The notes beneath the pieces were generated by a model. That model made no database searches. It saw only the letters and a program-made list of their open reading frames with translations, and was not told the DNA's origin. DNA of 46,316 nucleotides from a virus: the IMG/VR virus record IMGVR_UViG_3300020578_000140, positions 1-46,316 of that record; one strand, given 5' to 3'. Within the stretch, counting starts at the first letter, position 1. Each line of letters opens with the position of its first letter. This document shows, in pieces, positions 22,791 through 46,316 of the stretch. The position numbers were made by a program, and so were the translations under genes.

Positions 22791-22810
22791 TTCATTTCTC
22801 TTTTCTCTTT

Positions 22811-23289: not shown

Positions 23290-23291
23290 AT

Positions 23292-34091: not shown

Positions 34092-34210
34092 TGAATATCC
34101 TTTATGACTGGATCAAGCCTATCCCAATGACCACCATTGTTTCCTTGATAGACCTGTCCTGTTTCTTTATCTACAAGAAGCCATTTAGTGGGTGCTTTGG
34201 TTTTTACCAT
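34088..34210 (-). CDS. Hypothetical protein, 40 aa
   Basis: Starts MVKTKAPTKWLLVDKETGQ and ends DRLDPVIKDIQ. ATG 34210 chosen; a TTG at 34270 would add 20 residues and overlap the previous gene. Function unknown. Confidence 0.5.
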   Translation of the reverse strand: MVKTKAPTKWLLVDKETGQVYQGNNGGHWDRLDPVIKDIQ

Positions 34211-34256
34211 AAGTTCGACGGGATTTATAAGTTCTTCGTAATCCCTATTATCTCTA

Positions 34257-34355
34257 TTACCCAATAGCAATGCCTATTCCAGTAAACACCAATACAATAA
34301 TACCTATCAGGAATAAAAAGGTTCTAAAGTTAGCATCAGCCTTATTCTTGTTCAT
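34257..34355 (-). CDS. Single-pass membrane peptide, 32 aa
   Basis: MNKNKADANFRT then one membrane helix (FLFLIGIIVLVFTGIGIAIG). Starts 2 bp after the upstream stop. Too short for homology. Confidence 0.45.
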   Translation of the reverse strand: MNKNKADANFRTFLFLIGIIVLVFTGIGIAIG

Positions 34356-34357
34356 AA

Positions 34358-34483
34358 TCACCCCATATACATATATTTAAAATGTTTTTTACAGACATCG
34401 ATGATAGCGCCAGTAATTTTGTCTGGTTGAATATACTCTGCTGCGTTATCGCAATAGTAACATTTTGTTAACGTGTCTGCCAT
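34358..34483 (-). CDS. Small zinc-binding protein, 41 aa
   Basis: MADTLTKCYYCDNAA followed by DVCKKHF forms a CxxC...CxxH knuckle similar to that of the DUF7455-like protein at 10128. TATAAT (34495-34490) stands 6 bp before the ATG. Confidence 0.55.
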   Translation of the reverse strand: MADTLTKCYYCDNAAEYIQPDKITGAIIDVCKKHFKYMYMG

Positions 34484-34489
34484 ATTTCT

Positions 34490-34495
34490 ATTATA
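34490..34495 (-). promoter_or_regulatory. -10 box for a leaderless gene
   Basis: TGCTATAAT extended -10, 6 bp before ATG 34483, overlapping the end of the next upstream gene. Confidence 0.55.
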
Positions 34496-34498
34496 GCA

Positions 34499-34654
34499 CT
34501 ATGCATGAGTATACCATGATGGTGTAGGTTCGTCATCTATGGCCTCAACTATCTGTTCCGCCAATTTTTTAGATAAGGCATCCTTGTGTTTGCCTTTTAT
34601 ATGGTCATATATTATTTCTACGATAATGTCTATTTTGGATTCACGAGATATCAT
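34499..34654 (-). CDS. Hypothetical protein, 51 aa
   Basis: MISRESKIDIIVEIIYDHIKG then a helical acidic tail. Start overlaps the oxygenase stop by one base (TAATG). Confidence 0.55.
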   Translation of the reverse strand: MISRESKIDIIVEIIYDHIKGKHKDALSKKLAEQIVEAIDDEPTPSWYTHA

Positions 34655-35145
34655 TATTTTGTCCTTACATAAAAAAATAAAATCTTAACATAATCTCCAT
34701 CATTGAAGATTAGTTCTGGTCTATGGTGATATTGGTTACATGGACTAAAAATAATAGCACTATTATTTTCTAAGGTAAAGCAGTCCTTTTCTATGCATAT
34801 TGGCCAATCTACGTTTGCATCTATTAGATAATCAAAAGTTAAACCCTGCTCAGTATGAATAGGATCTTTGTGTGGTGGAAGGTTAGGGTTTGTGTGTTTG
34901 TTATTATATTCACTGTAGGTTATGTTATCTAGGAATGTACCCTCATCAAAAAATGAAAGCACTCTATCACATATCTCTTTTGCTATAGGGTGTGTTTTTT
35001 CAAATACAGGAACACCATCAGTTGTTAAAACGATGTCTTCTCTACCTCGTTCTAAAGCATATTGAGTACTTACCTTATCACTGCTGTCTAAGATTAGTTG
35101 ATTAATAAAATCTATCTGAGCCTGTGTAAATACGTCTTTTATCAT
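34654..35145 (-). CDS. 2-oxoglutarate/Fe(II) dioxygenase
   Basis: 163 aa, the shortest copy. H92-K-D94 (PPHKDP) and H140 or H141 (YHHRP) are the iron ligands; the usual 2OG arginine is absent and K154 (DYVKILF) may replace it. ATG 35145 lies 10 bp behind TATAAT; ATG 35157 overlaps the -10 itself and is rejected. Confidence 0.7.
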   Translation of the reverse strand: MIKDVFTQAQIDFINQLILDSSDKVSTQYALERGREDIVLTTDGVPVFEKTHPIAKEICDRVLSFFDEGTFLDNITYSEYNNKHTNPNLPPHKDPIHTEQGLTFDYLIDANVDWPICIEKDCFTLENNSAIIFSPCNQYHHRPELIFNDGDYVKILFFYVRTK

Positions 35146-35157
35146 GGCAAAGTCCAT

Positions 35158-35482
35158 TATAGCATTGCTTATTCTAAAAAATAAATCTTACTGTTATTTT
35201 ATATGTGGAGTAAAGTGGAGCAAAGTGGAGAGGTATGGGTAATGGAGCGTTTTTGAGGGCGGGCTCGTAATGTCAAACCATCAAACCATATACCACATAT
35301 CCCCCATATCCGTCAAACCATGGTATAAAGGTTTGGCATTATACATCCAAAACCATGGTTTGTCAAGTATCTTCGTAATCTATTTTGGATTAAAAATTGC
35401 CAAAAATCTGGGAAAATTCTAATAATATCGTAATATGTTTTAAAAAGTTTGAAAACATTTAAAAACCAGAAAATATGGTTTG
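35158..35482. other. Non-coding, repeat-rich region
   Basis: No gene seen in about 320 bp. It holds three 10-bp-spaced GTGGAG repeats, several AAACCAT/ATGGTTTG sites including the palindrome AAACCATGGTTT, and TCGTAAT repeats. The layout suits an origin or an operator region. Confidence 0.5.
35205..35230 (+). repeat. Iteron-like direct repeats
   Basis: GTGGAGTAAA, GTGGAGCAAA and GTGGAG at 35205, 35215 and 35225, an exact 10-bp period (one helical turn). Confidence 0.6.
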
Positions 35483-35772
35483 TTATTCCTTATTAGGGGG
35501 ATTATGGGAATGATCGTAATCTTTTTTATACCCGCCATTTTCGGCCCCAAAATCGCCCCCGTTAAAATCGAGCGGGGTAAATGAAAAGAACTTACTAAGA
35601 CCTATCATATGAGTAAAGGCTACAAAAGAGTTATGTAAATTATCACTAAAGGTTTTATATCCTTTTGGATCTCTTTTGCTATAAGTATAAAAATGTCTTG
35701 GCATAATATAGATAATCATAACACGAATTTATTATGGTTTGGGGAAAAAATGGTTTGTATCGTAATGGTTTG
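35275..35772. repeat. AAACCAT/ATGGTTTG repeat cluster
   Basis: Heptamer AAACCAT or its complement occurs at least eight times, including 35275, 35282, about 35316, the palindrome near 35352, about 35474, and three times between 35733 and 35772. The cluster surrounds the 35483-35704 gene. Confidence 0.55.
35483..35704 (-). CDS. Hypothetical protein, 73 aa
   Basis: MPRHFYTYSKRDPKGYKTF...NGGDFGAENGGYKKDYDHSHNPPNKE. His/Asp-rich tail. Lies inside the repeat cluster. Start at 35704 preferred over upstream codons. No family. Confidence 0.55.
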   Translation of the reverse strand: MPRHFYTYSKRDPKGYKTFSDNLHNSFVAFTHMIGLSKFFSFTPLDFNGGDFGAENGGYKKDYDHSHNPPNKE

Positions 35773-35803
35773 TATGCCTTGAAAAATACACCGACCACTT
35801 TTG
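35758..35803 (-). repeat. Bipartite element CGTAA/GTCGGGC, copy 1
   Basis: TATCGTAA and CCGACCACTTTTG, whose starts are 32 bp apart. Sits just 3' of the 35807 gene. Confidence 0.6.
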
Positions 35804-35806
35804 TGG

Positions 35807-36076
35807 CTAATTGTCAAATCGTTTTAACAATTCATCAAGTGTAGAAAATCCAGTATCTTCTGTTTTCAATGATTCTAAAAATAAATCCCAAGTTTCGTTA
35901 ATATATTTTGTTACTAAGTCATTGGTTGGAATTATCTCTTGACTAATAAAAAATGCTAGAGGCAAACCCAAGTCATTGTATTCTACAAAATCAGCAAACT
36001 CACCATCATGTTTATAATTCATCCACAGGTCAGCAAGTATATTACAACGACTAGAAAAGTCTGTATTGGTGCTCAT
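35807..36076 (-). CDS. Hypothetical actinophage protein, 89 aa
   Basis: RCNILADLWMNYKHDGEFADFVEYNDLGLPLAFFI and ETWDLFLESL are typical of a widespread small actinophage family. Function unknown. Confidence 0.65.
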   Translation of the reverse strand: MSTNTDFSSRCNILADLWMNYKHDGEFADFVEYNDLGLPLAFFISQEIIPTNDLVTKYINETWDLFLESLKTEDTGFSTLDELLKRFDN

Positions 36077-36266
36077 GTGTATAGTTCTCCTCTTTGTGAT
36101 ACTGTGCGCTCTCTGCGATAGTAATAAGCCTATTATACGATACTGTTGGTGCTATTTTTGCTAAATACTCGCCTATCTGCTCAATGTCAAGGCGAAGGTC
36201 AGACACAATGGCAACAAGGCGCATGGCTACCCTCTCCTCCTCAGTAAGTCGTCTGCGTATGGACAT
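36051..36266 (-). CDS. Hypothetical protein, 71 aa
   Basis: MSIRRRLTEEERVAMRLVAIVSDLRLDIEQIGEYLAKIAP: helical, basic N-terminus. GAGGAG 5 bp before ATG 36266 and TATAAT (36282-36277) just upstream fix the start. Confidence 0.6.
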   Translation of the reverse strand: MSIRRRLTEEERVAMRLVAIVSDLRLDIEQIGEYLAKIAPTVSYNRLITIAESAQYHKEENYTHEHQYRLF

Positions 36267-36350
36267 AGTTCTCCTCATTATAGCAAAAAAGTGAGAGGAG
36301 CGCAAGGCCAACAAAGAAAGGTGGAATCTTTACCTCACGCTCCAATATTA

Positions 36351-36710
36351 TTATCCTTTAACTAACTGAGAACTATGATAGTTAATATAGTCCTCTATTG
36401 AATGCCATTGGTTTCCAGTGCCCACAGTCATATTTGTGAAATCAATAGTGATTGGATGGTCTAAGTAACCAGGGTCCGACGGATTCATGGCTGTAATGCC
36501 ATAGCCAGTCTCTTCTAAGATACTATCCTGCATGATATAACTAATAGCCATTCGAGTTGCATACGGGATGTCATTCATCTGTATACGTGGCGTTGCATGC
36601 TGCAGGGCTGCTGCCAGGAGTGTATCCATATGGTCTTCATCCCAATGACTATACAAGGCCACGGCGTGGTCCTCTGATTGTTTAAAGATAAAATTACAAC
36701 GTGCTCCCAT
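36351..36710 (-). CDS. 'MGARCNF' phage protein, 119 aa
   Basis: MGARCNFIFKQSEDHAVALYSHWDEDHMDTLLAAALQHATPR matches a family common in actinophages. Promoter with both boxes directly upstream. Function unknown. Confidence 0.7.
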   Translation of the reverse strand: MGARCNFIFKQSEDHAVALYSHWDEDHMDTLLAAALQHATPRIQMNDIPYATRMAISYIMQDSILEETGYGITAMNPSDPGYLDHPITIDFTNMTVGTGNQWHSIEDYINYHSSQLVKG

Positions 36711-36742
36711 TGCTAGGCCTTTCTGTAGTAGGGTTTATTCCA

Positions 36743-36771
36743 ATGATATCAAGTTCTAGGTCCAATGTCAA
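36743..36771 (-). promoter_or_regulatory. SigA-type promoter
   Basis: On the - strand TTGACA (36771-36766), 17-bp spacer, TATCAT (36748-36743). Drives the 36351-36710 gene, which has AAAGG before its ATG. Confidence 0.75.
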
Positions 36772-36781
36772 CTGGATCCAT

Positions 36782-37060
36782 TCATTCATTCGCTGCCTCC
36801 TTTGCAGCAATGGCAAATGATAGGTCATATGTCAAACCATATAAATTTCCTAGAGCGTCAAGTTGACCTTCCCAATACCTACGCTCCATAGAATCTAAGG
36901 CCTCTTCAGTGTGGTCCTCTTCTTCCTGTGCTGCCTCTAGTTCCTTCTCAGCCTCTAGCATTAGGAACTTAAGGTGCCCATGCATGATATCAATTCCGCT
37001 AATACCATTGCTTACCTGTCTCTGCAGGTATGGGTCTAGAGTTGTTGGCGTTACTTCCAT
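36782..37060 (-). CDS. Hypothetical coiled-coil protein, 92 aa
   Basis: LEAEKELEAAQEEEDHTEEALDSMERRYWEGQL is a strongly charged helix. Overlaps the Api92-like stop by one base. Function unknown. Confidence 0.6.
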   Translation of the reverse strand: MEVTPTTLDPYLQRQVSNGISGIDIMHGHLKFLMLEAEKELEAAQEEEDHTEEALDSMERRYWEGQLDALGNLYGLTYDLSFAIAAKEAANE

Positions 37061-37797
37061 TATGTGGTTGGCTCCATTCTATAACTAGGCACGTGCTCGT
37101 CGTCTAAGTATATCTTGTGGTGTTCGCATTCCGCAACTGCTTCTAAGTCTGCCTCACCCATGTAGTGGCAGTCACTGCAGATTTCTCCACAGTCATTGTC
37201 ACAATACTCCATTGTGTTTATACTGTCACAATCTCTGCATTTGTTGTCATAAGATTCTATTTCACTACCCTGACCATTTATGAATAGGTGCTCTCCACCC
37301 CAACCAGTCTCTTCTTCATAAGATAAAGACATCTCAAGGTCAGGATACTGTTCTGATAGTTTTGTTATAGCCTCAATAGGTGGAGACCATGCGGTATTGA
37401 AGCGGTATGCAAGAGTATCAGGAGTATCAATCGTTATCTCAGTATCAGAATACTCTTCTCCGTCATGAACTGCAACATCCCATTTAGTTCCCCAGTTACG
37501 CACATTCCAGTCATACCAATTATTACCCTTAAACATAATAGCCTCTGATATAGGTTGCGTATGGTCTGATTGTTTGTTGTATTCCTCGTCTGATACGCCT
37601 GCTTGTTTATGGTTATAAATGTTGTGGAATGCAAATACAGGATTTGAATATGTAGTATCTGATAACTCCATTTTACCTGTTGTTTGATTCCATGAGTCGT
37701 GTGTTTGTGTGAATGGCCTATTGAGCATGCGCTTTACATCTGCAATAAGTTCTTCGCTACCCTCCATAGTTAGAGAGTTGTAGCACCAATTTGGCAT
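37060..37797 (-). CDS. Api92-like/YubB ferredoxin-fold protein with zinc ribbon
   Basis: 245 aa. MPNWCYNSLTMEG, the WNVRNWGTKWD block and FNTAWSPPIEAI mark the Api92-like ferredoxin fold. The C-terminal 60 residues carry CRDC, CDNDC and CSDC, an added zinc ribbon. Leader contains the CAACAACAAAGAAAGG cassette. Function unknown. Confidence 0.78.
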   Translation of the reverse strand: MPNWCYNSLTMEGSEELIADVKRMLNRPFTQTHDSWNQTTGKMELSDTTYSNPVFAFHNIYNHKQAGVSDEEYNKQSDHTQPISEAIMFKGNNWYDWNVRNWGTKWDVAVHDGEEYSDTEITIDTPDTLAYRFNTAWSPPIEAITKLSEQYPDLEMSLSYEEETGWGGEHLFINGQGSEIESYDNKCRDCDSINTMEYCDNDCGEICSDCHYMGEADLEAVAECEHHKIYLDDEHVPSYRMEPTT

Positions 37798-37804
37798 TGG
37801 GGGC

Positions 37805-37820
37805 CCTTTCTTTGTTGTTG
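37805..37820 (-). promoter_or_regulatory. Shared leader cassette CAACAACAAAGAAAGG, copy 1
   Basis: Identical 16 bp occur at 41109-41124 and 41670-41685, always just before a start codon and containing the AAAGG ribosome site. A TAGAAT -10 box lies upstream. Confidence 0.6.
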
Positions 37821-37850
37821 GTATTATTCTAGCAAAATATCAGGGTGTTG

Positions 37851-38015
37851 TCAAATACGTCCTTCAGCAATTAAGCCATTCAGGAAATCCTCTAGTTCTC
37901 TCAATGTTTCCCTATCCTCATCTGCAAACCTTCCAGTCATGTGATGATGAATAGTATAGTTTAAAGTCATCATCATTTTATCTATCTGTTCTTCTGTATA
38001 TCCCATTAATCCCAT
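37851..38015 (-). CDS. Hypothetical protein, 54 aa
   Basis: MGLMGYTEEQIDKMMMTLNYTIHHHM...ETLRELEDFLNGLIAEGRI. Helical. TATGAT box (38027-38022) 6 bp before the ATG indicates a leaderless mRNA. Confidence 0.55.
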   Translation of the reverse strand: MGLMGYTEEQIDKMMMTLNYTIHHHMTGRFADEDRETLRELEDFLNGLIAEGRI

Positions 38016-38053
38016 AGATAAATCATAGCAAAAATTATGGGAAAAAGCAAGTT

Positions 38054-38090
38054 CTACGTAATAAAAAAATTTTGTGAGATTTTTAATCGG
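38054..38090 (-). repeat. Bipartite element, partial tandem copy
   Basis: CTACGTAATAAAA...TTTTTAATCGG repeats the first two thirds of the next copy in direct tandem (about 37-bp unit). Confidence 0.55.
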
Positions 38091-38136
38091 CTACGTAATA
38101 AAATAAAATTATGATATTTTTAGTCGGGCACTTGCG
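38091..38136 (-). repeat. Bipartite element CGTAA/GTCGGGC, copy 2
   Basis: CTACGTAA at 38091 and GTCGGGCACTTG at 38123, 32 bp apart. Its end abuts the 3' end of tRNA-Asp. Confidence 0.6.
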
Positions 38137-38210
38137 ATGCGTATGGGATTTGAACCCATGATCTCTACCGTGACAGGGTAGCGATTTAAACCAAACTAAT
38201 CTAACGCACC
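38135..38210 (-). tRNA. tRNA-Asp (GTC)
   Basis: 76 nt. Acceptor stem GGTGCGT pairs with ACGCATC (one G-T). D arm GATT/AATC, anticodon stem CTACC/GGTAG with loop CTGTCAC (anticodon GTC), T arm ATGGG-TTCAAAT-CCCAT. CCA is not encoded. It lies downstream of the DUF932 gene and its stem-loop, so it may be processed from that transcript. Confidence 0.93.
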
Positions 38211-38220
38211 AAATAAATTG

Positions 38221-38243
38221 TGAGCAGTTTATACTCTTGCTCA
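38221..38243 (-). terminator. CTGAGCA...AAACTGCTC stem-loop, copy 2
   Basis: TGAGCA/TGCTCA 6-bp stem just 3' of the DUF932 gene. There is no T run, and the tRNA follows, so it may be a processing or stability hairpin rather than a strong terminator. Confidence 0.55.
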
Positions 38244-38257
38244 GGAGTTGCAATTAC

Positions 38258-39274
38258 TTACGCAACTGCTAGAACATCTTTCACTACTTTGAGCAGACGA
38301 TTTTTTTCTGCTGTGATAGCAGGGTCAAAACCACTTGAACCCATTAGTATTGATTCAGTAAGACCACGCTTACCTCCACGATACCAATCAATTCTTTCTG
38401 TGAGTGCGTTCCAAGCACCCCAAGCAGTTCCAGAAATCATGCCGTTAAACTCACCAGTATAGATGTCATTGATTGTGTCAACTTTTTTAGTCCATTTAGT
38501 GAGAGCCTGTTTAGCATTTTTATCAGGCTTTGGATAAGCAGCGAGAACAATATCATTGAATTGTTGCGCTGTGATTTCTTTCTCAATCATAGCCTTAGCC
38601 ATTATTGAAAACTCATCCATGTAAGCATTAGCAACAGCAAGAGCCTCACGAGCCTGTTGCACTTTACCATTGGCAGATTGCGTATGACGAATCTTGAAAG
38701 ATTGCTTAACGCCATCCTTCTTTTTCTTGCCACCTAGAGCAACAGCAAGAGTGTTAGCGCATACAACACGAACAGGGGTGACAGACGCTTGAATTGCAAT
38801 AGAGCCATCGTGTGATGTATTAACAAGAAGATAAGTCTTGATAACATCAGCAACACCACTAGGGTCTAATACAGTTTCACGCTGTAAGGCAAGAGAGCCA
38901 AATACAACACGACCACCACGCAACGAGCCAGCAGTTTCCCAACGACCTCCGCCATCAAGAATTGCATCACCAAATGAGAATAGGTCTTCGTTTTGTAGTG
39001 GAACATAGCGCTCACCTACAACACCAAGAACATCTGTCTGAGTGTTATCTGTGGGGTTAGTTCTCACAACATACTGATAAGATTTATCTGAGGTGAGATA
39101 ATTTGGAATATCTAATTCCTCTAATCTAACATTCCAATTATTTAGATTAGCAGCAACTAACATTTCGTTAGTATTTTTTTCTTCTGTGAAAACTGTGCCT
39201 AAGCCATGCCAAGCAGGTTCTCTGAAAGAAGCAAATGAAGCAACGCCATTTTGCGTTTCTAATTCATGAGCCAT
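38258..39274 (-). CDS. DUF932 phage/plasmid-like protein
   Basis: 338 aa. AWHGLGTVFTEEKNTNEMLVAANLNNWNV, VGERYVPLQNEDLFSFGDAIL and VRVVCANTLAVAL are the DUF932 (TIGR03299) landmarks. Full family length. Promoter TTGCAT-17-TAAGAT upstream. Role unknown; the family is often found on mobile DNA. Confidence 0.88.
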   Translation of the reverse strand: MAHELETQNGVASFASFREPAWHGLGTVFTEEKNTNEMLVAANLNNWNVRLEELDIPNYLTSDKSYQYVVRTNPTDNTQTDVLGVVGERYVPLQNEDLFSFGDAILDGGGRWETAGSLRGGRVVFGSLALQRETVLDPSGVADVIKTYLLVNTSHDGSIAIQASVTPVRVVCANTLAVALGGKKKKDGVKQSFKIRHTQSANGKVQQAREALAVANAYMDEFSIMAKAMIEKEITAQQFNDIVLAAYPKPDKNAKQALTKWTKKVDTINDIYTGEFNGMISGTAWGAWNALTERIDWYRGGKRGLTESILMGSSGFDPAITAEKNRLLKVVKDVLAVA

Positions 39275-39303
39275 TTTTTTCCTTCCTATTTGTAGTTATT
39301 CTA

Positions 39304-39332
39304 ATCTTAGCATAATGTATAGGAAAATGCAA
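39304..39332 (-). promoter_or_regulatory. SigA-type promoter for the DUF932 gene
   Basis: TTGCAT (39332-39327), 17-bp spacer ending TGC, TAAGAT (39309-39304). Confidence 0.65.
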
Positions 39333-39357
39333 ATCTTAAATGAGGAAAACATATAAT

Positions 39358-39404
39358 CTACGTAAAACGGACATTTAGGTATAAAACGGGCCGACCACTT
39401 TTTG
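39358..39404 (-). repeat. Bipartite element CGTAA/GTCGGGC, copy 3
   Basis: CTACGTAA at 39358 and GCCGACCACTTTTTG from 39390, 32 bp apart. The inner ACGTAAAACGGACATTTAG (19 bp) is identical in the 42.8-kb copy. Confidence 0.65.
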
Positions 39405-39415
39405 AAGAAAAACTT

Positions 39416-39440
39416 TAAGCAGTTTCACTGGACGTGCTTA
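39416..39440 (-). terminator. TAAGCA...TGCTTA stem-loop with T run
   Basis: TAAGCA-N13-TGCTTA followed by AAGTTTTTC on the - strand. It keeps the AAACTGCTT loop side of the CTGAGCA family but with a compensatory G-C to A-T change. Ends the putative structured RNA. Confidence 0.7.
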
Positions 39441-39640
39441 GGTCCCATGCTGCTACAGCCAGAAAGGATCAATCAACTGCAGCACCGATTCTCTACGAAA
39501 TCACGCACCGCCAAGGTCATAGGCCGACGGTTATGACGCCCGTCGGGTTGGTGCGCTAAAAATAGAGCCTCTAGGCTTGCATATCCAGACATCCCAAGGT
39601 CAACGGATAGCGACATTGACCTTAGCATTGTCAGGAATTC
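39416..39640 (-). ncRNA. Candidate structured non-coding RNA with pseudoknot
   Basis: No open frame, and visibly more GC-rich than its surroundings. It contains AAGGTCAA-N12-TTGACCTT (39596-39623) and a TGCTGC/GCAGCA stem (39448-39484). A CGCACC/GGTGCG stem (39504-39555) encloses GTCATA, CCGACGG, TATGAC and CCGTCGG in interleaved order, which is an H-type pseudoknot if both helices form. It ends at a terminator hairpin. Strand is inferred from the terminator and from neighbouring genes. Family not recognised; not tRNA or tmRNA. Confidence 0.55.
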
Positions 39641-39645
39641 TTATT

Positions 39646-40113
39646 TCAGTATTCTGCAGTAGAAATATTATCTACTTCTACTTCTACATCAACATCATGA
39701 GACGAAGAATCAGCCCAAACATTTAAATCAATATCCTCGACATCAAATGTTGAAAGTTCATTAAATGGCACCCTTACAACTCCTGTGATTGTTGCAGTTG
39801 CTTCAAAGTGAATTTCCTTTTCAGGGGCAAATCCAAATATTTGACAAATCTCAGATACAATATCTTCTGCAGATGTGTCGTTTTCTAACCATCCGTGAAG
39901 TTCGCCTTCTAACTGGCGATGAAGTTTGTTGTGATTGTCAACCACTCGTTGGTAATAACGAGCATTTTCTAATTGATATTCAATATCAGTTACTTTTACT
40001 GTGGGGTAGTGGTTTGTTACCCCTCTTCCTTCATCATTATCAATAACTTTATAAGTTACTAATTGATTTGGGTTGTAGTGGTCAGGCACTACGATTTCAT
40101 TAGTCGTTTCCAT
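39646..40113 (-). CDS. Hypothetical actinophage protein, 155 aa
   Basis: Charged N-terminal half with LENARYYQRVVDNHNKLHRQLEGELHGWL and a C-terminal beta half ending in repeated VDVEVEVD. Overlaps the upstream gene by 14 bp. Function unknown. Confidence 0.65.
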   Translation of the reverse strand: METTNEIVVPDHYNPNQLVTYKVIDNDEGRGVTNHYPTVKVTDIEYQLENARYYQRVVDNHNKLHRQLEGELHGWLENDTSAEDIVSEICQIFGFAPEKEIHFEATATITGVVRVPFNELSTFDVEDIDLNVWADSSSHDVDVEVEVDNISTAEY

Positions 40114-40372
40114 TTACTATATCCTCCATAGATTCTATTTCATTTATAGTAGATAGCATATCATTTAATTCTGATTCTGTCAATAATGCGCTAGTTACTA
40201 AACTTGTTGTTAAAGAAGCAAGCAGAGCAGAATACTGATACAGTTCTTTAATAAACTCCTCGTCATTAACTTCATTTCTAATGTCTAGAATGTGCTTAAC
40301 ACACACCAACATCATTTCGTCATGAACGGCGTCTCTTGACGCTTCTTGTAATTTGATAGCGGTTGCTAACAT
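40100..40372 (-). CDS. Hypothetical protein, 90 aa
   Basis: MLATAIKLQEASRDAVHDEMMLVCVKHIL...helical throughout. AAAGGA 8 bp before ATG 40372; upstream in-frame codons rejected. Confidence 0.6.
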   Translation of the reverse strand: MLATAIKLQEASRDAVHDEMMLVCVKHILDIRNEVNDEEFIKELYQYSALLASLTTSLVTSALLTESELNDMLSTINEIESMEDIVNGND

Positions 40373-40478
40373 TTGTTTATCCTTTCTTATATAATCTAAT
40401 AATATCACTTATGACTGACAAATACAAACTGGAGTCGTAAATAATCTCACATAATGGACTGTGTTTTACATCACATGT

Positions 40479-40493
40479 GGTCGGGCACTTTTG
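40479..40493 (-). repeat. GTCGGGCACTTTT element, copy 4 (half)
   Basis: GGTCGGGCACTTTTG. The CGTAA partner (40436) lies about 46 bp away, longer than in other copies. Confidence 0.5.
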
Positions 40494-40640
40494 AGGTGGA
40501 GCAGTTTAGACACTAAAGGATTTCCTCCATACTCAGGTGTTTGGGAGTGTCAAGGGACATTGATAACAAGATCAACATAGTTGCAACTACATCGCAGGTT
40601 ATCGTGAACGCAGACTGGCACCCAATTCTATTTAGTTTTA
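40494..40640 (-). other. Non-coding region with inverted repeats
   Basis: No gene seen. GATAAC (about 40564) and GTTATC (about 40599) enclose the palindrome TAGTTGCAACTA; a degenerate CTGAGTA...AAACTGCTC stem-loop (40499-40547) follows on the - strand. May be a second small structured RNA. Confidence 0.4.
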
Positions 40641-40645
40641 TTTGG

Positions 40646-40668
40646 TGAGCAGTTTTATTTCATGCTCA
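40646..40668 (-). terminator. CTGAGCA...AAACTGCTC stem-loop, copy 3
   Basis: TGAGCA/TGCTCA stem 12 bp after the 40680 gene stop. No T run. Confidence 0.55.
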
Positions 40669-40679
40669 GGAAAGTAATT

Positions 40680-41102
40680 TTACAAGTATCTTGCGATAGA
40701 ATTGTAAGTAGAAGTAGAAACTACTTCCTCATCAGTCATTTTGAGAATACGAATTGCGTTCTCAATTTCCTCTACGATTTCTTTATACTGCCAATCGTTG
40801 AGAGTATCAAAGTCCTTTTCAGGCATTTCAGGAACTACAATACAACCTTTAGGTAAATTGAAATCTACATTGACCTCGCCATTGTAGCGAACATTAGCCG
40901 TTAGGTCTGTTGCCTTAGAGAGTTTAGCAAGTGCTAATTCGCCTACCTCTTTACGCCAAGCCAATAAAGCCTTTTCGTGTTTGTCCTCGTTTGCTTTTTG
41001 GTTGTCCTTATCTTTCTTGATTTGGACTAACTTACTTTCAAGTGCCTTGATTACTTTGGAGGTAGCAATCTTGACATTTATACTTTTGCCATTTCTAGCC
41101 AT
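40680..41102 (-). CDS. Hypothetical actinophage protein, 140 aa
   Basis: MARNGKSINVKIATSKVIKALESKLVQIKKDKDNQ, a lysine-rich coiled coil, then a small beta part and an acidic helical tail. Leader cassette CAACAACAAAGAAAGG; promoter TTGATT-17-TAAGAT (41158-41130). Common actinophage protein of unknown role. Confidence 0.68.
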   Translation of the reverse strand: MARNGKSINVKIATSKVIKALESKLVQIKKDKDNQKANEDKHEKALLAWRKEVGELALAKLSKATDLTANVRYNGEVNVDFNLPKGCIVVPEMPEKDFDTLNDWQYKEIVEEIENAIRILKMTDEEVVSTSTYNSIARYL

Positions 41103-41129
41103 TTATTTCCTTTCTTTGTTGTTGTATCT

Positions 41130-41158
41130 ATCTTAGCATTTCTACGATAGAAAATCAA
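41130..41158 (-). promoter_or_regulatory. SigA-type promoter
   Basis: TTGATT (41158-41153), 17-bp spacer ending TGC, TAAGAT (41135-41130). Confidence 0.6.
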
Positions 41159-41159
41159 G

Positions 41160-41184
41160 TGAGCAGTTTTGGTTGTCATGCTCA
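41160..41184 (-). terminator. CTGAGCA...AAACTGCTC stem-loop, copy 4
   Basis: TGAGCA/TGCTCA stem about 33 bp after the 41217 gene stop, just before the next promoter. Confidence 0.55.
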
Positions 41185-41216
41185 GGACAATTAGCCCAAC
41201 TTCGGATAGTGGCGGG

Positions 41217-41390
41217 CTAAGACTGTTTTGCTGTCCAAGTAGTCCAGCGTGGTGAGCCATTGACATCAAGTTTTACACGAACGCTTGTTCCGTCTGTGTT
41301 TGGCTTGATTTCAGTAATGACTCCAGTTATCTTAGACTTCTGTGAAGTATAAGTATCGCCCACTTTGTATAGTGCGTTTTTTACTGACAT
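41217..41390 (-). CDS. Small beta protein, 57 aa
   Basis: Starts MSVKNALYKVGDTYTSQKSK and ends GSPRWTTWTAKQS. Similar in layout to the 41493 gene (YxxGDxxTSxxxxITGxI), so the two are probably paralogues with a KOW/SH3-like barrel. Uses promoter 41433-41461. Confidence 0.6.
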   Translation of the reverse strand: MSVKNALYKVGDTYTSQKSKITGVITEIKPNTDGTSVRVKLDVNGSPRWTTWTAKQS

Positions 41391-41432
41391 GTGTTCCTTT
41401 CAGAGCATAGTGTTTTTGGTATTACATGTATT

Positions 41433-41461
41433 ATTATGACATTTATGGGATTATTTGTCAA
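41433..41461 (-). promoter_or_regulatory. SigA-type promoter
   Basis: TTGACA (41461-41456), 17-bp spacer, CATAAT (41438-41433). Confidence 0.7.
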
Positions 41462-41492
41462 ATCCCACAAATACCATAAAATGTGATTTACC

Positions 41493-41663
41493 TCACTTAG
41501 AGGTTTTGACCATAGCAAAACGGCGAGAACCATTTGCTAGGATAAGATTTACACGAGTGACCTTATTACTAAGAGGTGAGAACGAGGCAATTCTGCCTGT
41601 AATTCCTGTCCTAGAAGTAGTGAACAGGTCGCCTAGTTGATAAGTGTATCCGCCTAGAGTCAT
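41493..41663 (-). CDS. Small beta protein, 56 aa
   Basis: Starts MTLGGYTYQLGDLFTTSRTG and ends GSRRFAMVKTSK. Leader cassette precedes ATG 41663. Paralogue-like to the 41217 gene. Possible nucleic-acid-binding barrel; inference only. Confidence 0.6.
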   Translation of the reverse strand: MTLGGYTYQLGDLFTTSRTGITGRIASFSPLSNKVTRVNLILANGSRRFAMVKTSK

Positions 41664-41770
41664 GTCCGTCCTTTCTTTGTTGTTGTTGTATAAGTTTATC
41701 AAAAAAATACAAGAAATACAAATCAATCAGGGGATTTAGGGTGTATTTTTAATGTGTCCTTAATCACAGA

Positions 41771-41815
41771 GTCGTAACTTGACAAATAAGATTTTGTGGG
41801 GCCGACCACTTTTGC
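41771..41815 (-). repeat. Bipartite element CGTAA/GTCGGGC, copy 5
   Basis: GTCGTAA at 41771 and GCCGACCACTTTTGC from 41801, 30 bp apart. Confidence 0.6.
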
Positions 41816-41888
41816 GGGGGATCTATTGATAAACGAAAAAGTAAAATATTAACCAGAGAAGAAACCAATATTCTATTTTCACAAAATT

Positions 41889-42608
41889 TTATTTTTTCTT
41901 AGCAGAAAAAACTATATCTGCTTTGTTGTAAACACATAGACTACATTTTACACATGCAGACCCCTCTTTGTCAATTAAGGGAATTGCTTTTTTATTCTCA
42001 GGACACTTAGCGCCTACTTTGCCAATCATGGCTTTGAGGTCTGCCTGCCCAATTGCAAAAGTGTCTGCAAGATATGCTAGTCTTATTCCTTTATCTTTGT
42101 TTAGACCAATAGCAATATCTTTGTTATCTTTATCTGTTGAGAAATAAAGAGATAGGTTTTCAATATTCTTGAGCATGTCTGCAGCGGTAGCCACACGAGT
42201 ATAAACCCAAAATTGTATATCAGGATTATTAAGGATTACATATTGCCATGCTCTTGTGTAGGTATCACTAAAGAAATCTCCGTCCCAGTGAATACGGAAT
42301 AACTTCTCAGCATTGCGCTTATCGCAATCAGACTTAAAATCTGTAATCATATCCTCTAATAAATCTACCATAGTGGGCTCATCCGCATTGCGTAGTAATT
42401 CCCAATTATGGAGCAGGTTATCTCTTACTCCCTTGTATATCTTTTCAAGTTTTCCTGCGTAGCATACACTCTCGCAAGTATTAGTGGCACCAGGACACGA
42501 GAAAGCCTTTCCAGCAGGCAATCCAAAAGTGTTGGCAATTGTTGGGGTCTTTCCGTTTTTAGATACGGCATTAGCAACCTTCCTATCCATAGAGCGTTTT
42601 AATTTCAT
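41889..42608 (-). CDS. Gp88-like phage protein
   Basis: 239 aa. TFGLPAGKAFSCPGATNTCESVCYAGKLEKIYKGV is the Gp88 signature; RIHWDGDFFSDTYTRAW, FWVYTRV and CPENKKAIPL with CVKCSLC complete it. The Cys-rich ends suggest metal binding. ATG overlaps the previous gene (ATGA). Function unknown. Confidence 0.85.
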   Translation of the reverse strand: MKLKRSMDRKVANAVSKNGKTPTIANTFGLPAGKAFSCPGATNTCESVCYAGKLEKIYKGVRDNLLHNWELLRNADEPTMVDLLEDMITDFKSDCDKRNAEKLFRIHWDGDFFSDTYTRAWQYVILNNPDIQFWVYTRVATAADMLKNIENLSLYFSTDKDNKDIAIGLNKDKGIRLAYLADTFAIGQADLKAMIGKVGAKCPENKKAIPLIDKEGSACVKCSLCVYNKADIVFSAKKK

Positions 42609-42751
42609 TTAGGCCTTTCTTTCTTTTCCAATTCTAACATTTCTTTATTGCTTTGTCTAGTGTATCTTTTTTTATTTGGCAAGGCGGAGGCAGCATTAGA
42701 TCGACGTAATTCTTGAATACGCTTTAATTCCTCTTTACTTTTTCTAAACAT
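42605..42751 (-). CDS. Small basic protein, 48 aa
   Basis: MFRKSKEELKRIQELRRSN...KEMLELEKKERPK, strongly basic helix. ATGA overlap with the Gp88-like gene. TATTAT box 5 bp before the ATG. Confidence 0.55.
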   Translation of the reverse strand: MFRKSKEELKRIQELRRSNAASALPNKKRYTRQSNKEMLELEKKERPK

Positions 42752-42807
42752 AACAAATAATAATATCATAAAAACATTACAAAATCAAACTGGGAGGTTC
42801 TTAACAA

Positions 42808-42857
42808 TTAACGTAAAACGGACATTTAGTACAAATTGGTCGGGCGGTTTTTGCGGG
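42808..42857 (-). repeat. Bipartite element CGTAA/GTCGGGC, copy 6
   Basis: TTAACGTAA from 42808 and GGTCGGGCGGTTTTTGCGGG to 42857, spacing about 30 bp. Just 3' of the 42861 gene. Confidence 0.6.
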
Positions 42858-42860
42858 ATT

Positions 42861-43088
42861 TTATTCTACAAAAACATACCATTCAATTTTGACATCATCT
42901 AAAACAAAGTGTTCAACTTCATCATCAAAGTCATCAACCAAAATTAATTTAAATCCATCACGAGTTTCAGTTATAGTTTTAACTGTTAAATATTCCTCAT
43001 TTATTTTGATTAAGTCACCTTCTGCTAATTGATTGGGCAGAAGGTAGTCAGCGAATACTAGATCCATATTCATCATTGTATCAGACAT
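42861..43088 (-). CDS. Hypothetical small beta protein, 75 aa
   Basis: LAEGDLIKINEEYLTVKTITETRDGFKLILVDDFDDEVEHFVLDD: beta-barrel-like, a frequent actinophage small protein. Last gene of a four-gene run. Confidence 0.6.
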   Translation of the reverse strand: MSDTMMNMDLVFADYLLPNQLAEGDLIKINEEYLTVKTITETRDGFKLILVDDFDDEVEHFVLDDVKIEWYVFVE

Positions 43089-43298
43089 TTATTTCACCAA
43101 TACATTTCCATTAGCATAGAAGGTTTTGGTATACATTTTACCCATTGGGTCAGATAGATTATAGGTTGCGTATTCTTTAGCGTTTCCGTGGTCTACGCAT
43201 TTATCCCACGCTTTCACCGCTTCAAGCAAATCTGATACTCGCAGGGTATTTACCAATTCTCCGTCATACGAAGTGGTAAGCGCATAAGTGTATTCCAT
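43089..43298 (-). CDS. Hypothetical protein, 69 aa
   Basis: MEYTYALTTSYDGELVNTLRVSDLLEAVKAWDKCVDHGNA...Adjacent to both neighbours without a gap. Confidence 0.6.
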   Translation of the reverse strand: MEYTYALTTSYDGELVNTLRVSDLLEAVKAWDKCVDHGNAKEYATYNLSDPMGKMYTKTFYANGNVLVK

Positions 43299-43580
43299 TT
43301 AGTAGTCCTCTCTTTCAATTAGCCACTCGTTTAAGTGGTGTTGTTCAATAATAGCCCAAGCAGGGGCAGTAGTCAAACCCTTATAGGTTATGCCTTCGGG
43401 CATTGGTATTTCCAAATCCCATAAGCCTAAGTCATTTACGGCATCTATGGCTTCAACACAAGGCTGAATCATAGACTTAGGAACGGGAGGGAAGTGATTA
43501 GCAGTTAAGTGAATTGCTAACTGCCTTTCAATAGTCATGTCATCAAGGTTGGCTAAGTCGTGAGCGAAGTTGCTTCCCAT
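43299..43580 (-). CDS. Hypothetical protein, 93 aa
   Basis: LAIHLTANHFPPVPKSMIQPCVEAIDAVN is a recognisable block of an actinophage small-protein family. Function unknown. Confidence 0.62.
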   Translation of the reverse strand: MGSNFAHDLANLDDMTIERQLAIHLTANHFPPVPKSMIQPCVEAIDAVNDLGLWDLEIPMPEGITYKGLTTAPAWAIIEQHHLNEWLIEREDY

Positions 43581-43582
43581 TA

Positions 43583-43792
43583 TTAGTTAGCCTCCGCAGT
43601 TTCCCAAATAGTTTTCTCAAGGCTTTTATCTGCCCAAATAACTTCTCCGTCATAGTCAAAGATTATTTCGTGTGGATTACACTCGCAATTCTCAAAGTCA
43701 TAGTCCTCGCCATTTCCCCAATAGTGAGTGCCTCTGCCATCACAATAAGAGCAGTTTCTAATTCTTTCTACTGCTAGTTCTAAAGTATTCAT
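43583..43792 (-). CDS. Zinc-knuckle protein, 69 aa
   Basis: CSYCDGRGTHYWGNGEDYDFENCECNP has a CxxC...CxC pattern like a DnaJ-type zinc repeat (CxxCxGxG). ATG 43792 has AAAGGA upstream. Confidence 0.65.
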   Translation of the reverse strand: MNTLELAVERIRNCSYCDGRGTHYWGNGEDYDFENCECNPHEIIFDYDGEVIWADKSLEKTIWETAEAN

Positions 43793-43802
43793 GTATTCTT
43801 TT

Positions 43803-43850
43803 TCCTTTCTTTCATACTGAAATCTTATCATAGGGGGCTGACATTATCAA
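43803..43850 (-). promoter_or_regulatory. TGTCAG-N10-TAAGAT promoter
   Basis: TGTCAG (43843-43838), exactly 10 bp, TAAGAT (43827-43822), preceded by TGA. Its leader shares 20 identical bp with 44537-44556. Confidence 0.6.
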
Positions 43851-43864
43851 ACCCCCACGCCCCT

Positions 43865-44362
43865 TTACCAAGAAGAAGTGTAGTAAAAGGACAATTTGGA
43901 CTTTTCGGACAATTCAAGGACATGCTTTAATTGCTTGATAGTGTCTTTTATATCCTCCCAATACCATTGGTCGATATCTGTTCCGCCAAAGAAAAAGCCT
44001 TCTCTTGGTGGCAATAGGCTAGGGTCTTTCTTGGATAGAGCCTGTTGGCAGGTAGTAAGTAATTCTCTAAGTTTCTCCTTAGATACATAGTATTCACCGC
44101 AGTCATCTTTACCGCCTTGAACATTCTCAACAAACCATGCGTGTATCTGATTAGACTTGCGCCAATAAGCGCAGGTGACTGAAACCTCTACACCATAGAT
44201 ACCATGGGCAACATCTTCCATTCCAGAAGTCTTTACAATATCATTAAATAAATCTGTCACTACTTCGGGACTGTCAAAGCCAATATCATTATCTCTATCT
44301 AACTTTTTCCAGTCAATTTTTTCTACATGCTTTTTAGCAGCAAGATACATATCTAATCCCAT
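43865..44362 (-). CDS. 'MGLDMYL' phage protein, 165 aa
   Basis: MGLDMYLAAKKHV and YWRKSNQIHAWFVENVQGGKDDCGEYYVSKEKLREL are landmarks of a phage family of unknown role. Start at 44362 fits; the longer frame is rejected. Confidence 0.75.
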   Translation of the reverse strand: MGLDMYLAAKKHVEKIDWKKLDRDNDIGFDSPEVVTDLFNDIVKTSGMEDVAHGIYGVEVSVTCAYWRKSNQIHAWFVENVQGGKDDCGEYYVSKEKLRELLTTCQQALSKKDPSLLPPREGFFFGGTDIDQWYWEDIKDTIKQLKHVLELSEKSKLSFYYTSSW

Positions 44363-44363
44363 T

Positions 44364-44531
44364 TTAGTTATTTTCCTTTCCAAAAACTTTTTCCATTATA
44401 TTTAAGTTTTCCTCTGTTAGAAAACTCTGGGCACTTCCCCAAAGACCATAAATATAATTATCTCCGTATTTATCTTTCGCTAATTTTTCAATATTAGCAA
44501 TTCTATCCATTTTTTCTTTAACTGTCAACAT
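44364..44531 (-). CDS. Hypothetical protein, 55 aa
   Basis: MLTVKEKMDRIANIEKLAKDKYGDNYIYGLWGSAQSFL. AAAGGA before ATG 44531. One base from the next gene. Confidence 0.58.
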   Translation of the reverse strand: MLTVKEKMDRIANIEKLAKDKYGDNYIYGLWGSAQSFLTEENLNIMEKVFGKENN

Positions 44532-44536
44532 GACTG

Positions 44537-44580
44537 TCCTTTCTTTCATACTGAAAGCCTATCATTTTCTACTGACATTT
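44537..44580 (-). promoter_or_regulatory. TGTCAG-N10-TAGGCT promoter
   Basis: TGTCAG (44577-44572), 10 bp ending TGA, TAGGCT (44561-44556). Confidence 0.6.
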
Positions 44581-44581
44581 T

Positions 44582-44677
44582 CAATTTAGACACGCCTAAT
44601 TTTTGTGAGAAAAATCACAGGCCCCTTAAAGTGTAACGTAATTCACATTGTGGATAAGTCTGTGGAAAACCCCCCGA
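44582..44677. other. Non-coding region with DnaA boxes
   Basis: TTATCCACA (44657-44649, - strand) is a perfect DnaA box and TTTTCCACA (44669-44661) a near match, 3 bp apart. No gene in this part. May be a replication start or a DnaA-responsive site. Confidence 0.45.
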
Positions 44678-44720
44678 CTACGTAAACCAAACAAAACAAA
44701 AATTTAGTCGGGCACTTTTA
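44678..44720 (-). repeat. Bipartite element CGTAA/GTCGGGC, copy 7
   Basis: CTACGTAA at 44678 and AGTCGGGCACTTTTA from 44706, about 29 bp apart. Confidence 0.65.
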
Positions 44721-44825
44721 TTGTTTAGCAGCACACGCAAAACATTTTAGATCTGCGATGTAAATTCTACCGCAGACCTCACATGTTAGGAATTTAGTTT
44801 TCTTAGTAATTCTATTCTTTCTGAT
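44718..44825 (-). CDS. Possible zinc-ribbon ORF without a canonical start
   Basis: The frame reads KKTKFLTCEVCGRIYIADL then KCFACAAKQ before TAA, a CxxC...CxxC ribbon. No ATG, GTG or TTG lies between the previous in-frame stop and the first Cys. ATT at 44810 or ATC at 44825 could start it, or it could be translated by frameshift from the overlapping gene. Confidence 0.35.
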   Translation of the reverse strand: MRKNRITKKTKFLTCEVCGRIYIADLKCFACAAKQ

Positions 44826-44923
44826 TCTAAATTTCTAATTCTAATTAAACTAAAAACAGTTAAAGTTATTAGCCCGCCAAGAGCAATAATAATTGCAAGA
44901 ATATCAGTTGTCAAAAGTGTCAT
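44786..44923 (-). CDS. Small membrane protein, 45 aa
   Basis: MTLLTTDILAIIIALGGLITLTVFSLIRI is one membrane helix, followed by a charged tail. ATGA overlap with the upstream gene. Confidence 0.6.
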   Translation of the reverse strand: MTLLTTDILAIIIALGGLITLTVFSLIRIRNLESERIELLRKLNS

Positions 44924-45114
44924 GATGGAATTAATCCTAACTCATCAACACCGCAAGCAGTTTCAAATCTTGCTTTGTCAAAATTTTCGTTTCTAGTTCC
45001 GAAATAAGTTGAGAAGCCATCTACTAAATCTTCGTAGACCTGTGGGTGAATGTCATCTTTTACATCATTTAGAATTGAGGCGATAGCCTTGAAGTGTGCT
45101 TTAGTTAAACTCAT
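44920..45114 (-). CDS. Hypothetical protein, 64 aa
   Basis: MSLTKAHFKAIASILNDVKDDI and FDKARFETACGV are typical of a small actinophage family. ATGA overlaps on both sides. Confidence 0.65.
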   Translation of the reverse strand: MSLTKAHFKAIASILNDVKDDIHPQVYEDLVDGFSTYFGTRNENFDKARFETACGVDELGLIPS

Positions 45115-45374
45115 ACTAACACCTCATCGTTTAGCATGACGAAAGAGTGAGAGCCACCCTCATTTAAGCAGGCTAACTCATGCTCTAATTCTTCACGAGT
45201 TAAGAGAGAAGGGTTGCCTATTAATTCGTCAATAGCCTCAACATTAAGGTTAGCGAAATCAGCAAGAGGCATTTCTGAAATCTCTTTTGCGAGTGGTGAG
45301 TCAGAATAAACTCTTGAAATGAAATTAACACCATCTTTTGTGAATGGGTAATCTGTGTAAGTTGCGTTAGTCAT
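45111..45374 (-). CDS. Hypothetical protein, 87 aa
   Basis: Acidic, helical: LAKEISEMPLADFANLNVEAIDELIGNPSLLTREELEHELACLNEGG. TAATG-type spacing to the previous gene. Unknown. Confidence 0.6.
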   Translation of the reverse strand: MTNATYTDYPFTKDGVNFISRVYSDSPLAKEISEMPLADFANLNVEAIDELIGNPSLLTREELEHELACLNEGGSHSFVMLNDEVLV

Positions 45375-45488
45375 TTATTTTTTTTCCTTTTCTTTTGTTT
45401 TAATAATTGTAGCGATTTTTTCTAAATTAGTCAAGCGTGTCGCTTCACGCTCTTTTCTAACTAATTCTTGAAATTCATGAAGTTTCAT
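45375..45488 (-). CDS. Short basic helical protein, 37 aa
   Basis: Starts MKLHEFQELVRKEREATRL and ends IKTKEKEKK. TAATG junction with the upstream gene. Confidence 0.5.
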   Translation of the reverse strand: MKLHEFQELVRKEREATRLTNLEKIATIIKTKEKEKK

Positions 45489-45688
45489 TATTCCTTATCC
45501 TTAACTGCTACTGTGCGATAGTGATAGTTAGCACCCTCGCTACGAACACGAACGAGATAGGGGGTAGCATTTTCATACCATACGGCGTAAGGGTGCGCCT
45601 CAACATCTACGATTTCTCCTGTTAGAGAATTTGAACGATAGGTTTTGCCAATAAGTAGGCTTTCGATACTGTATAAATTAGCAGACAT
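45488..45688 (-). CDS. Hypothetical small beta protein, 66 aa
   Basis: LLIGKTYRSNSLTGEIVDVEAHPYAVWYENATPYLVRVRSEG: barrel-like. AGAAAGG before the ATG. Its long leader holds the paired TGAGCCTAGC motif. First gene of the run ending at 44718. Confidence 0.6.
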   Translation of the reverse strand: MSANLYSIESLLIGKTYRSNSLTGEIVDVEAHPYAVWYENATPYLVRVRSEGANYHYRTVAVKDKE

Positions 45689-45706
45689 TTAATTTCCTTT
45701 CTAGTC

Positions 45707-45765
45707 TGAGGGTTTTATTTGCTAGGCTCACCTTTCGGATTATTTGCTAGGCTCACACCCTGTAA
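45707..45765 (-). promoter_or_regulatory. Leader RNA element: two TGAGCCTAGCAAATAA motifs
   Basis: On the - strand, motif copies at 45756-45740 and 45731-45715 flank CCGAAAGG. AGGGT and ACCCT close a stem around them. Lies between promoter 45788-45816 and the 45688 start. Confidence 0.5.
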
Positions 45766-45787
45766 TTTTATTTAATTTTACTCTGTA

Positions 45788-45816
45788 ATTATTTCATATT
45801 TTTACGAAAATGTCAA
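45788..45816 (-). promoter_or_regulatory. SigA-type promoter
   Basis: TTGACA (45816-45811), 17-bp spacer, AATAAT (45793-45788). It gives a leader of about 90-95 bp. Confidence 0.6.
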
Positions 45817-45832
45817 AACGACACGCCGTAAA

Positions 45833-45952
45833 TTAACAATAAATTTTCTCAAATTCTGTGATAGTCATCACACCTTTGTATTCCATACAATTCGGACAAA
45901 ACAGACTCTCATCTGAAAGTTCTAATTCGCAAAAACAACAAATTTTGTTCAT
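45833..45952 (-). CDS. Small zinc-ribbon protein, 39 aa
   Basis: MNKICCFCELELSDESLFCPNCMEYKG has two CxxC knuckles. Start at 45952 chosen; the upstream frame would cross the promoter. Confidence 0.65.
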   Translation of the reverse strand: MNKICCFCELELSDESLFCPNCMEYKGVMTITEFEKIYC

Positions 45953-45980
45953 TTTATTTCCTTTCTTTTTAACTACCGAA

Positions 45981-46002
45981 ATTCTAGCAGGGGGGACTGA
46001 CA
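45981..46002 (-). promoter_or_regulatory. TGTCAG-N10-TAGAAT promoter
   Basis: TGTCAG (46002-45997), 10 bp ending TGC, TAGAAT (45986-45981). Drives the 45952 zinc-ribbon gene. Confidence 0.6.
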
Positions 46003-46196
46003 TTTTGCGGGAACAAATCATAACAAATCGGACATCTTAAAAAATTATTTTTGTGATTTTAACCACATAAACTTAAACAGACAAAACGGACATTTTGCCG
46101 ACGCTATCGGGCGTGTCTACAGAAAATCGGACATTTAGGACATGTGATACAGAACACAAAAAAACTTTTACAAGAATCGGCGTGTCGCCTTGATTT
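46003..46196. other. Non-coding divergent intergenic region
   Basis: No gene seen. Four CGGACAT repeats (46029, 46087, 46128 and a related GGACATG) and a GGCG-TGT-CGCC hairpin (46179-46189) lie between the two divergent TGTCAG promoters. Confidence 0.45.
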
Positions 46197-46218
46197 TGTC
46201 AGTCCCTTCTGTTATTAT
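46197..46218 (+). promoter_or_regulatory. TGTCAG-N10-TATTAT promoter, + strand
   Basis: TGTCAG (46197-46202), 10 bp ending TGT, TATTAT (46213-46218). Same geometry as the three - strand copies. Its gene lies beyond the window. Confidence 0.55.
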
Positions 46219-46232
46219 TCTCCTATAAATAA

Positions 46233-46316
46233 ATAGCGACATTTGGCTAATGAGCCTAGCAAATAAATGTGATACAACTCACAGTGAGCCTAGCGAATAA
46301 GTAGCCAAAATGTCAG
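46233..46316 (+). promoter_or_regulatory. Leader RNA element: paired TGAGCCTAGC motifs, + strand
   Basis: TGAGCCTAGCAAATAA (46251-46266) and TGAGCCTAGCGAATAA (46285-46300) flank a GTGA/TCAC hairpin. GACATTTGGCTA and TAGCCAAAATGTC close a long stem around them. Cut by the window end. Confidence 0.5.

Follow-up and report, generated by a model that had tools for sequence, protein, structure and literature searches.

A new family of modular structured leader RNAs in the early operons of environmental phages

The put sites of phage HK022 (putL and putR) are structured RNAs of about 70 nt that contain non-canonical A.G pairs and occur once or twice per phage genome (PMC9378689). Their two adjacent stem-loops adopt a V shape with a triple helix, and their activity has been shown: they act on the β′ zinc-binding domain to suppress pausing and termination, and no dedicated protein is needed (PMC9378689). 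Simple conserved units, often in tandem, are found in the pan and STAXI motif RNAs, of which the first lies before pantothenate genes and has been read as a likely dimeric protein-binding site, and the second is a pseudoknot (PMC2864571). The element analyzed here resembles pan and STAXI in being built of simple units, often in tandem; its consensus and structure differ from theirs, and neither matched in an Rfam scan. With the nutL and nutR sites of phage λ it shares the form of a short RNA hairpin site in divergent early leaders; a nut site has a single boxB hairpin, whereas the unit of the present element is a two-stem internal-loop motif.

The DNA examined (hereafter "the window") comprises 46,316 bases and corresponds to an entire IMG/VR record. 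It looks like a genome fragment, because the protein family most widely shared by 18 related genomes is absent from it. For several genes of its early operons, the nearest annotated relatives belong to Mycobacterium and Streptomyces phages, which makes an actinobacterial host likely; the viruses that carry the element probably infect actinobacteria. When the window was searched for the 16-mer UGAGCCUAGCAAAUAA with three or fewer mismatches, four matches were obtained, all at its right end (Table 1). The preliminary description had placed this motif exactly twice in each of two divergent leaders; that count was accurate for the minus leader, but in the plus leader the second copy carries an A-to-G change. 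The rest of that account was confirmed, in that all four copies are sense to the leader transcript, each pair flanks a hairpin and is closed by an outer stem, and the outer-stem sequences differ between the two leaders.

Table 1. Features of the two leaders at the right end of the window. The covariance model was trained on 37 sequences that included both window copies, and its scores for the window are therefore high by construction.
Feature	Position	Strand	Basis or remark
First ORF downstream of the minus element (66 aa; small β-rich protein)	45488..45688	-	AlphaFold pLDDT 82
Minus-leader double element	45705..45764	-	Covariance-model match, 68.7 bits, E 5e-16 (by construction)
Minus outer stem, 3′ arm ACCCT (RNA ACCCU)	45709-45713	-	Sequence; flanking purine A at 45714
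Minus second core strand UGAGCCUAGCAAAUAA	45715..45730	-	16-mer match
Minus inner hairpin TCCGAAAGG, U-CC-GAAA-GG	45731-45739	-	Sequence; GNRA loop
Minus first core strand UGAGCCUAGCAAAUAA	45740..45755	-	16-mer match
Minus outer stem, 5′ arm AGGGT (RNA AGGGU)	45757-45761	-	Pairs with 45709-45713; flanking purine G at 45756 (G.A flank)
Minus-leader promoter TTGACA-17-AATAAT, TG before -10	45788..45816	-	11/12 consensus match
CRP/GlxR-like site TGTGATAGTCATCACA	45857..45872		Center about 72 bp from start of minus -10; fits 52/62/72 series
Imperfect CRP/GlxR-like site TGTGATACAGAACACA	46143..46158		Center about 62 bp from start of plus -10
Plus-leader promoter TTGATT-17-TATTAT, TG before -10	46190..46218	+	Sequence
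Plus outer stem, 5′ arm GACATTTGGCTA / GACAUUUGGCUA	46238-46249	+	Sequence; flanking purine A at 46250
Plus-leader double element	46242..46310	+	Covariance-model match, 70.3 bits, E 1.8e-16 (by construction)
Plus first core strand UGAGCCUAGCAAAUAA	46251..46266	+	16-mer match
Plus inner hairpin ATGTGATACAACTCACAG / AUGUGAUACAACUCACAG	46267-46284	+	Sequence; 46268-46283 doubles as CRP/GlxR-like DNA site
CRP/GlxR-like site TGTGA-N6-TCACA inside plus inner hairpin	46268-46283		Sequence
Plus second core strand TGAGCCTAGCGAATAA / UGAGCCUAGCGAAUAA	46285-46300	+	16-mer copy with a single A-to-G change
Plus outer stem, 3′ arm TAGCCAAAATGTC / UAGCCAAAAUGUC	46302-46314	+	Sequence; flanking purine G at 46301
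16-mer copies	45715-45730 (-), 45740-45755 (-), 46251-46266 (+)		Exact

Further copies were abundant outside the window, both in IMG/VR and among relatives fetched through an early protein, in many of which the covariance model recovers the element. A scan of IMG/VR for the 16-mer yielded at least 120 stretches, nearly all with paired copies, and pairs 25–36 nt apart were present in more than 100 contigs. The 257 Gb of bacterial and archaeal genomes contained 57 isolated single matches, i.e. a chance background, and no pair occurred in the 84,980 genomes concerned (GTDB). The pairing is therefore far beyond chance. Because the relatives were fetched using the early protein only, the bias of an exact search was avoided; 50 of 78 carried the element, compared to none of the 78 when the sequences were reversed, and the other 28 had no element within the DNA stretch examined. 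In a strict scan of 18 phage genomes, one or two elements were found in most, along with a few weak, chance-like hits comparable to the three in the reversed control. Element-bearing genomes span 36–110 kb, with one or two elements each. Low-scoring model hits within a coding region (L313, L317, L322 and L326) were judged to be chance plus homology. The Rfam 15 covariance models, applied to the whole window at the gathering threshold, matched a tRNA alone, and a relaxed E-value over 45640–46316 gave no plausible match. No convincing copy was returned from INPHARED phages by blastn with two element versions, a database in which such short queries are weakly sensitive, and the element sequence was not found in the literature searched. 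By these comparisons, the RNA is a new family of a known type, the structured phage leader RNA; strongly conserved, and absent from Rfam and the GTDB genomes searched, it marks early-operon starts in the environmental phage contigs.

Comparison of the copies showed that the actual unit is shorter than the 16-mer. Its 5′ side reads stem, R UGAG, bulged C, stem, and its returning side C AAAUAA R, stem. In the single-unit form (L333, L321), a GNRA loop caps the second stem, and the strand returns through C AAAUAA R to the outer stem. Some leaders carry half of the double form, and the 16-mer therefore represents a pair of half-units connected through a short helix. In a unit, the outer stem is followed by two opposed purines (A.G or G.A), by 5′-UGA-3′ facing 5′-AAAUAA-3′, by a G-C pair adjoining the bulged C, and by a second stem; in the double form, which is the usual one, two facing units share a central helix of 4–5 bp and are capped by the inner hairpin. 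Units occur singly, doubly and triply, and also nested head to tail. A scan with the single-unit pattern identified 96 stretches, and the outer stem had at least 4 bp in 76 of 100 matches, the remainder being triples read at the inner layer or chance-like matches. In one sub-lineage, a single unit is located mid-operon between early genes (L367, L416, L429, L144 (G020)), directly after a small gene starting MKELIGYTI; in some of these a second inverted repeat then follows.

Ordinary minimum-free-energy folding misfolds the short form (z -0.92), and the structure thus rests on comparison. Outer arms with at least 4 bp were present in 44 of 51 distinct elements (shuffled arms: mean 8, maximum 16), and all 46 distinct inner hairpins pair. 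In the 37-sequence alignment, both sides had changed in each of the six outer pairs and in both inner pairs; the covariation score was 0.452, compared to 0.112 when shuffled and at most 0.146 when slid. The protein-found relatives further revealed that the two 16-mers pair together via a covarying central helix, for which nine complementary versions were counted (contexts: CUAG/CUAG, 88; CUAC/GUAG, 18; CUAAG/CUUAG, 15; CUUAG/CUAAG, 7; CUAU/AUAG, 3; CUAAU/AUUAG, 2; and others), with a constant bulged C adjoining it. A scan for another base at the first central position, which gave two GC-rich chance hits, had suggested an invariant center; this was an artefact of the pattern, and the idea was rejected because the center covaries in these relatives. 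At the positions flanking the core, an A.G or G.A combination was counted in 104 of 113 outer cases and in 114 of 116 inner ones (218 of 229 together), and the mismatch switches as a pair. Covariation is decisive for all three helical parts, namely outer stem, inner hairpin and central helix, and the comparison establishes a conserved structured RNA in the early-operon leaders. The preliminary description had taken a constant core within differing stems as a sign of RNA structure, provided that more copies existed and that their outer stems covaried; both proved to be so, the latter at every outer pair.

Two other readings of the repeated 16-mer were weighed against these data. As direct repeats bound by a repressor or activator, the pair would form a DNA operator, and its location near promoters that bear other DNA sites is in keeping with this. 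It is contradicted, however, by stems that covary around a constant repeat, by spacing that follows no helical phase, by the GNRA loops among the terminal loops, by single units that form long hairpins and by the sense orientation to the leader, and we regard a DNA operator as very improbable. An upstream peptide is more improbable still. The frequent [A/G]UG AGC CUA GCA AAU AA could be read as a short ORF, and the R before UGAGCC gives AUG or GUG in most copies, but the A.G or G.A pair accounts for that purine; further, no frame is kept, because the inner lengths take all residues modulo 3 (81, 31 and 21), which contradicts a leader peptide.

The element sits about 30 nt 3′ of a strong promoter. 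A -10 box, mostly extended, was located 20–62 nt upstream of the core (median 34) in 124 of 137 distinct leaders; the loose test also succeeded antisense in 61, and the association is therefore an enrichment, not proof. In 125 of 137 leaders, the next 140 nt contain a Shine-Dalgarno sequence and a start codon, and the distance from element to start codon is 27–75 nt (10th to 90th percentile). Long co-directional runs of small genes are commonly headed by the element. Genomes with two elements differ in arrangement: the window, G019 and G023 have a divergent pair, whereas in others the two lie in tandem or on one strand. A long class of leaders has a second promoter-like sequence between element and gene. 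In L277 (7081) and L319 (6947), a similar promoter is followed directly by a Shine-Dalgarno sequence without the element, which constitutes a natural with/without pair. The element is dispensable in the lineage, given that 28 of the 78 relatives show none and that some have a similar promoter without it; its function could be put to a direct test in natural relatives that have or lack the cassette.

The product of the first ORF downstream of the minus element is a member of a family that is common in the early operons of these phages, including relatives without the element. A structural search with it returned no significant fold match; the best were eIF5A/EF-P domains at E 0.27 or worse, and an SH3/KOW-like, eIF5A/EF-P link was dropped on that account. 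The minus early operon (33555–45700, -) contains many more strong σ70-like promoter matches on its coding strand, and the other strand has none of comparable strength; none of the operon-internal matches is followed by the RNA element. A conserved promoter type was noted at 46197–46218 and in L012, L013 and L047, with TGTCAG about 11 nt before the extended -10 (TGNTAGNNT). It often has no good -35, lies before short elements and after long ones, and could need a dedicated activator. In addition, a box (CGGCGTGTCG / CGACACGCCG) was observed in either orientation close upstream of the -35 at 45820–45830, at 46178–46190 and at most leader promoters; other leaders have TGTCCG direct repeats about 10 bp apart instead.

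We tentatively propose, at somewhat less than even probability, that early phage operons carry the element as a modular leader RNA acting in cis, which is bound as it emerges and alters elongation in a nut/put-like manner. The RNA would emerge about 20 nt after the transcript start, from strong σ70-type promoters heading divergent early operons (promoters and starts were predicted from the sequence). The partner that then binds its units would be RNA polymerase itself or an RNA-binding factor of phage or host origin, and elongation in the early operon would change as a result, as at λ nut or HK022 put sites. A factor acting on transcript or polymerase is favored because the element lies just after the promoter, has one or two sites per genome and is indifferent to the first gene. 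That the ligand is a protein or the polymerase, rather than a small molecule, is reasonably probable; elongation control as the role is a possibility held with more reserve. HK022 put is the closest analogue in placement, the present element occupying the early leader shortly after a strong promoter with a predicted start. The two share size, A.G pairs, copy number, early leaders, divergent operons where there are two, and the lack of a fixed downstream gene. They differ in that put forms a V of two stem-loops, whereas covariation supports one coaxial irregular hairpin of repeated units for the element, which has no Rfam match. The variable number and orientation of units argues against a rigid, put-like docking on polymerase and suggests a bound protein. 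A boxA-like sequence of the E. coli type was found near none of 164 elements, and no λ N-like protein was identified. Few terminator-like sites were found. A single long antiterminated transcript is not obligatory, because the minus operon holds many promoter-like matches on the same strand. In a weak search for partner genes, with imperfect calls of small ORFs, the families obtained were all associated with lineage, and none was specific to element-bearing relatives or loci. If the element controls elongation, it would be a put/nut-like system outside the lambdoid phages, in probable actinobacterial viruses; if it binds a protein, it would offer a ready-made modular RNA-protein pair.

A role in mRNA protection or as a post-transcriptional switch is almost as likely as elongation control. 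Here, a phage or host RNA-binding protein would alter the stability or translation of early mRNA, or the fold itself would be a barrier to nucleases, both close to the 5′ end and at a site between cistrons. The element's indifference to gene identity, its position near the 5′ end in any unit number and orientation, its dispensability as a cassette and the mid-operon single units after one gene in a sub-lineage all agree with such a role, whereas most other promoter-like sites of the same operon lack the element, and its highly specific core suggests a dedicated ligand. Direct occlusion of a start site fits poorly, and start-site repression of one gene is disfavored, because the distance to the start is variable and a promoter-like sequence intervenes in the long class. 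Of the two functions suggested in the preliminary description, an autoregulatory RNA-binding protein may hold in part: a leader that binds protein or polymerase fits better than a riboswitch, but nothing points to autoregulation of a single gene at the level of translation.

The other suggestion, a metabolite-binding riboswitch with one or two cooperative sites, is weakly supported and appears improbable. In its favor, the core is compact and strongly conserved, lies in a 5′ leader and is frequently duplicated, as tandem aptamers are. The mini-ykkC (guanidine-II) riboswitch likewise has a small conserved motif twice in its leader; there the copies form separate hairpins with ACGR loops, whereas the present element has its conserved bases in internal loops and variable terminal loops. 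The first genes are unrelated small ORFs and make up no consistent gene class, and a terminator-like T tract lies within 80 nt downstream in just 8 of 133 leaders. Riboswitch classes are usually present in cells too, whereas the paired element has no Rfam relative and no copy in the 84,980 bacterial and archaeal genomes.

In the long class, the CRP/GlxR-type consensus TGTGR-N6-YCACA is present in 40 of 45 leaders with an 18-nt inner hairpin, and in 34 of those 40, the promoter-like sequence that follows has its -10 at a distance of 52 bp from the center of the site. Separate CRP-like sites upstream of leader promoters are centered at 52 bp (30), 62 bp (8) and 72–73 bp (7). A turn-by-turn spacing of the 52/62/72 type is known for class I CRP activation, and CRP or GlxR may bind these candidate sites. 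The elongation-control RNA could accordingly be drawn more specifically, as a new and widespread type of phage antitermination or elongation-control RNA. It would be assembled from one to three interchangeable units of either orientation, and in one sub-class its hairpin would double as a site for a host CRP-family activator of a nested second promoter; taken whole, this is rather unlikely. If the dual use is real, one DNA stretch would encode an RNA fold and a transcription-factor site at once. A further CRP/GlxR-like site, TGTGA-N6-TCACA, was noted at 46052–46067 in the divergent promoter region.

Other features of the window were recorded in passing. A tRNA-Asp gene with a GTC anticodon (38134–38210, -) lies in the early region. 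Auxiliary genes in 7224–8837 (+), 19040–20575 (+) and 21217–24047 (-) include a Nol-like carbamoyltransferase and a tryptophan halogenase, and weak sulfotransferase and 2OG-Fe(II) oxygenase matches were obtained in the same three regions.
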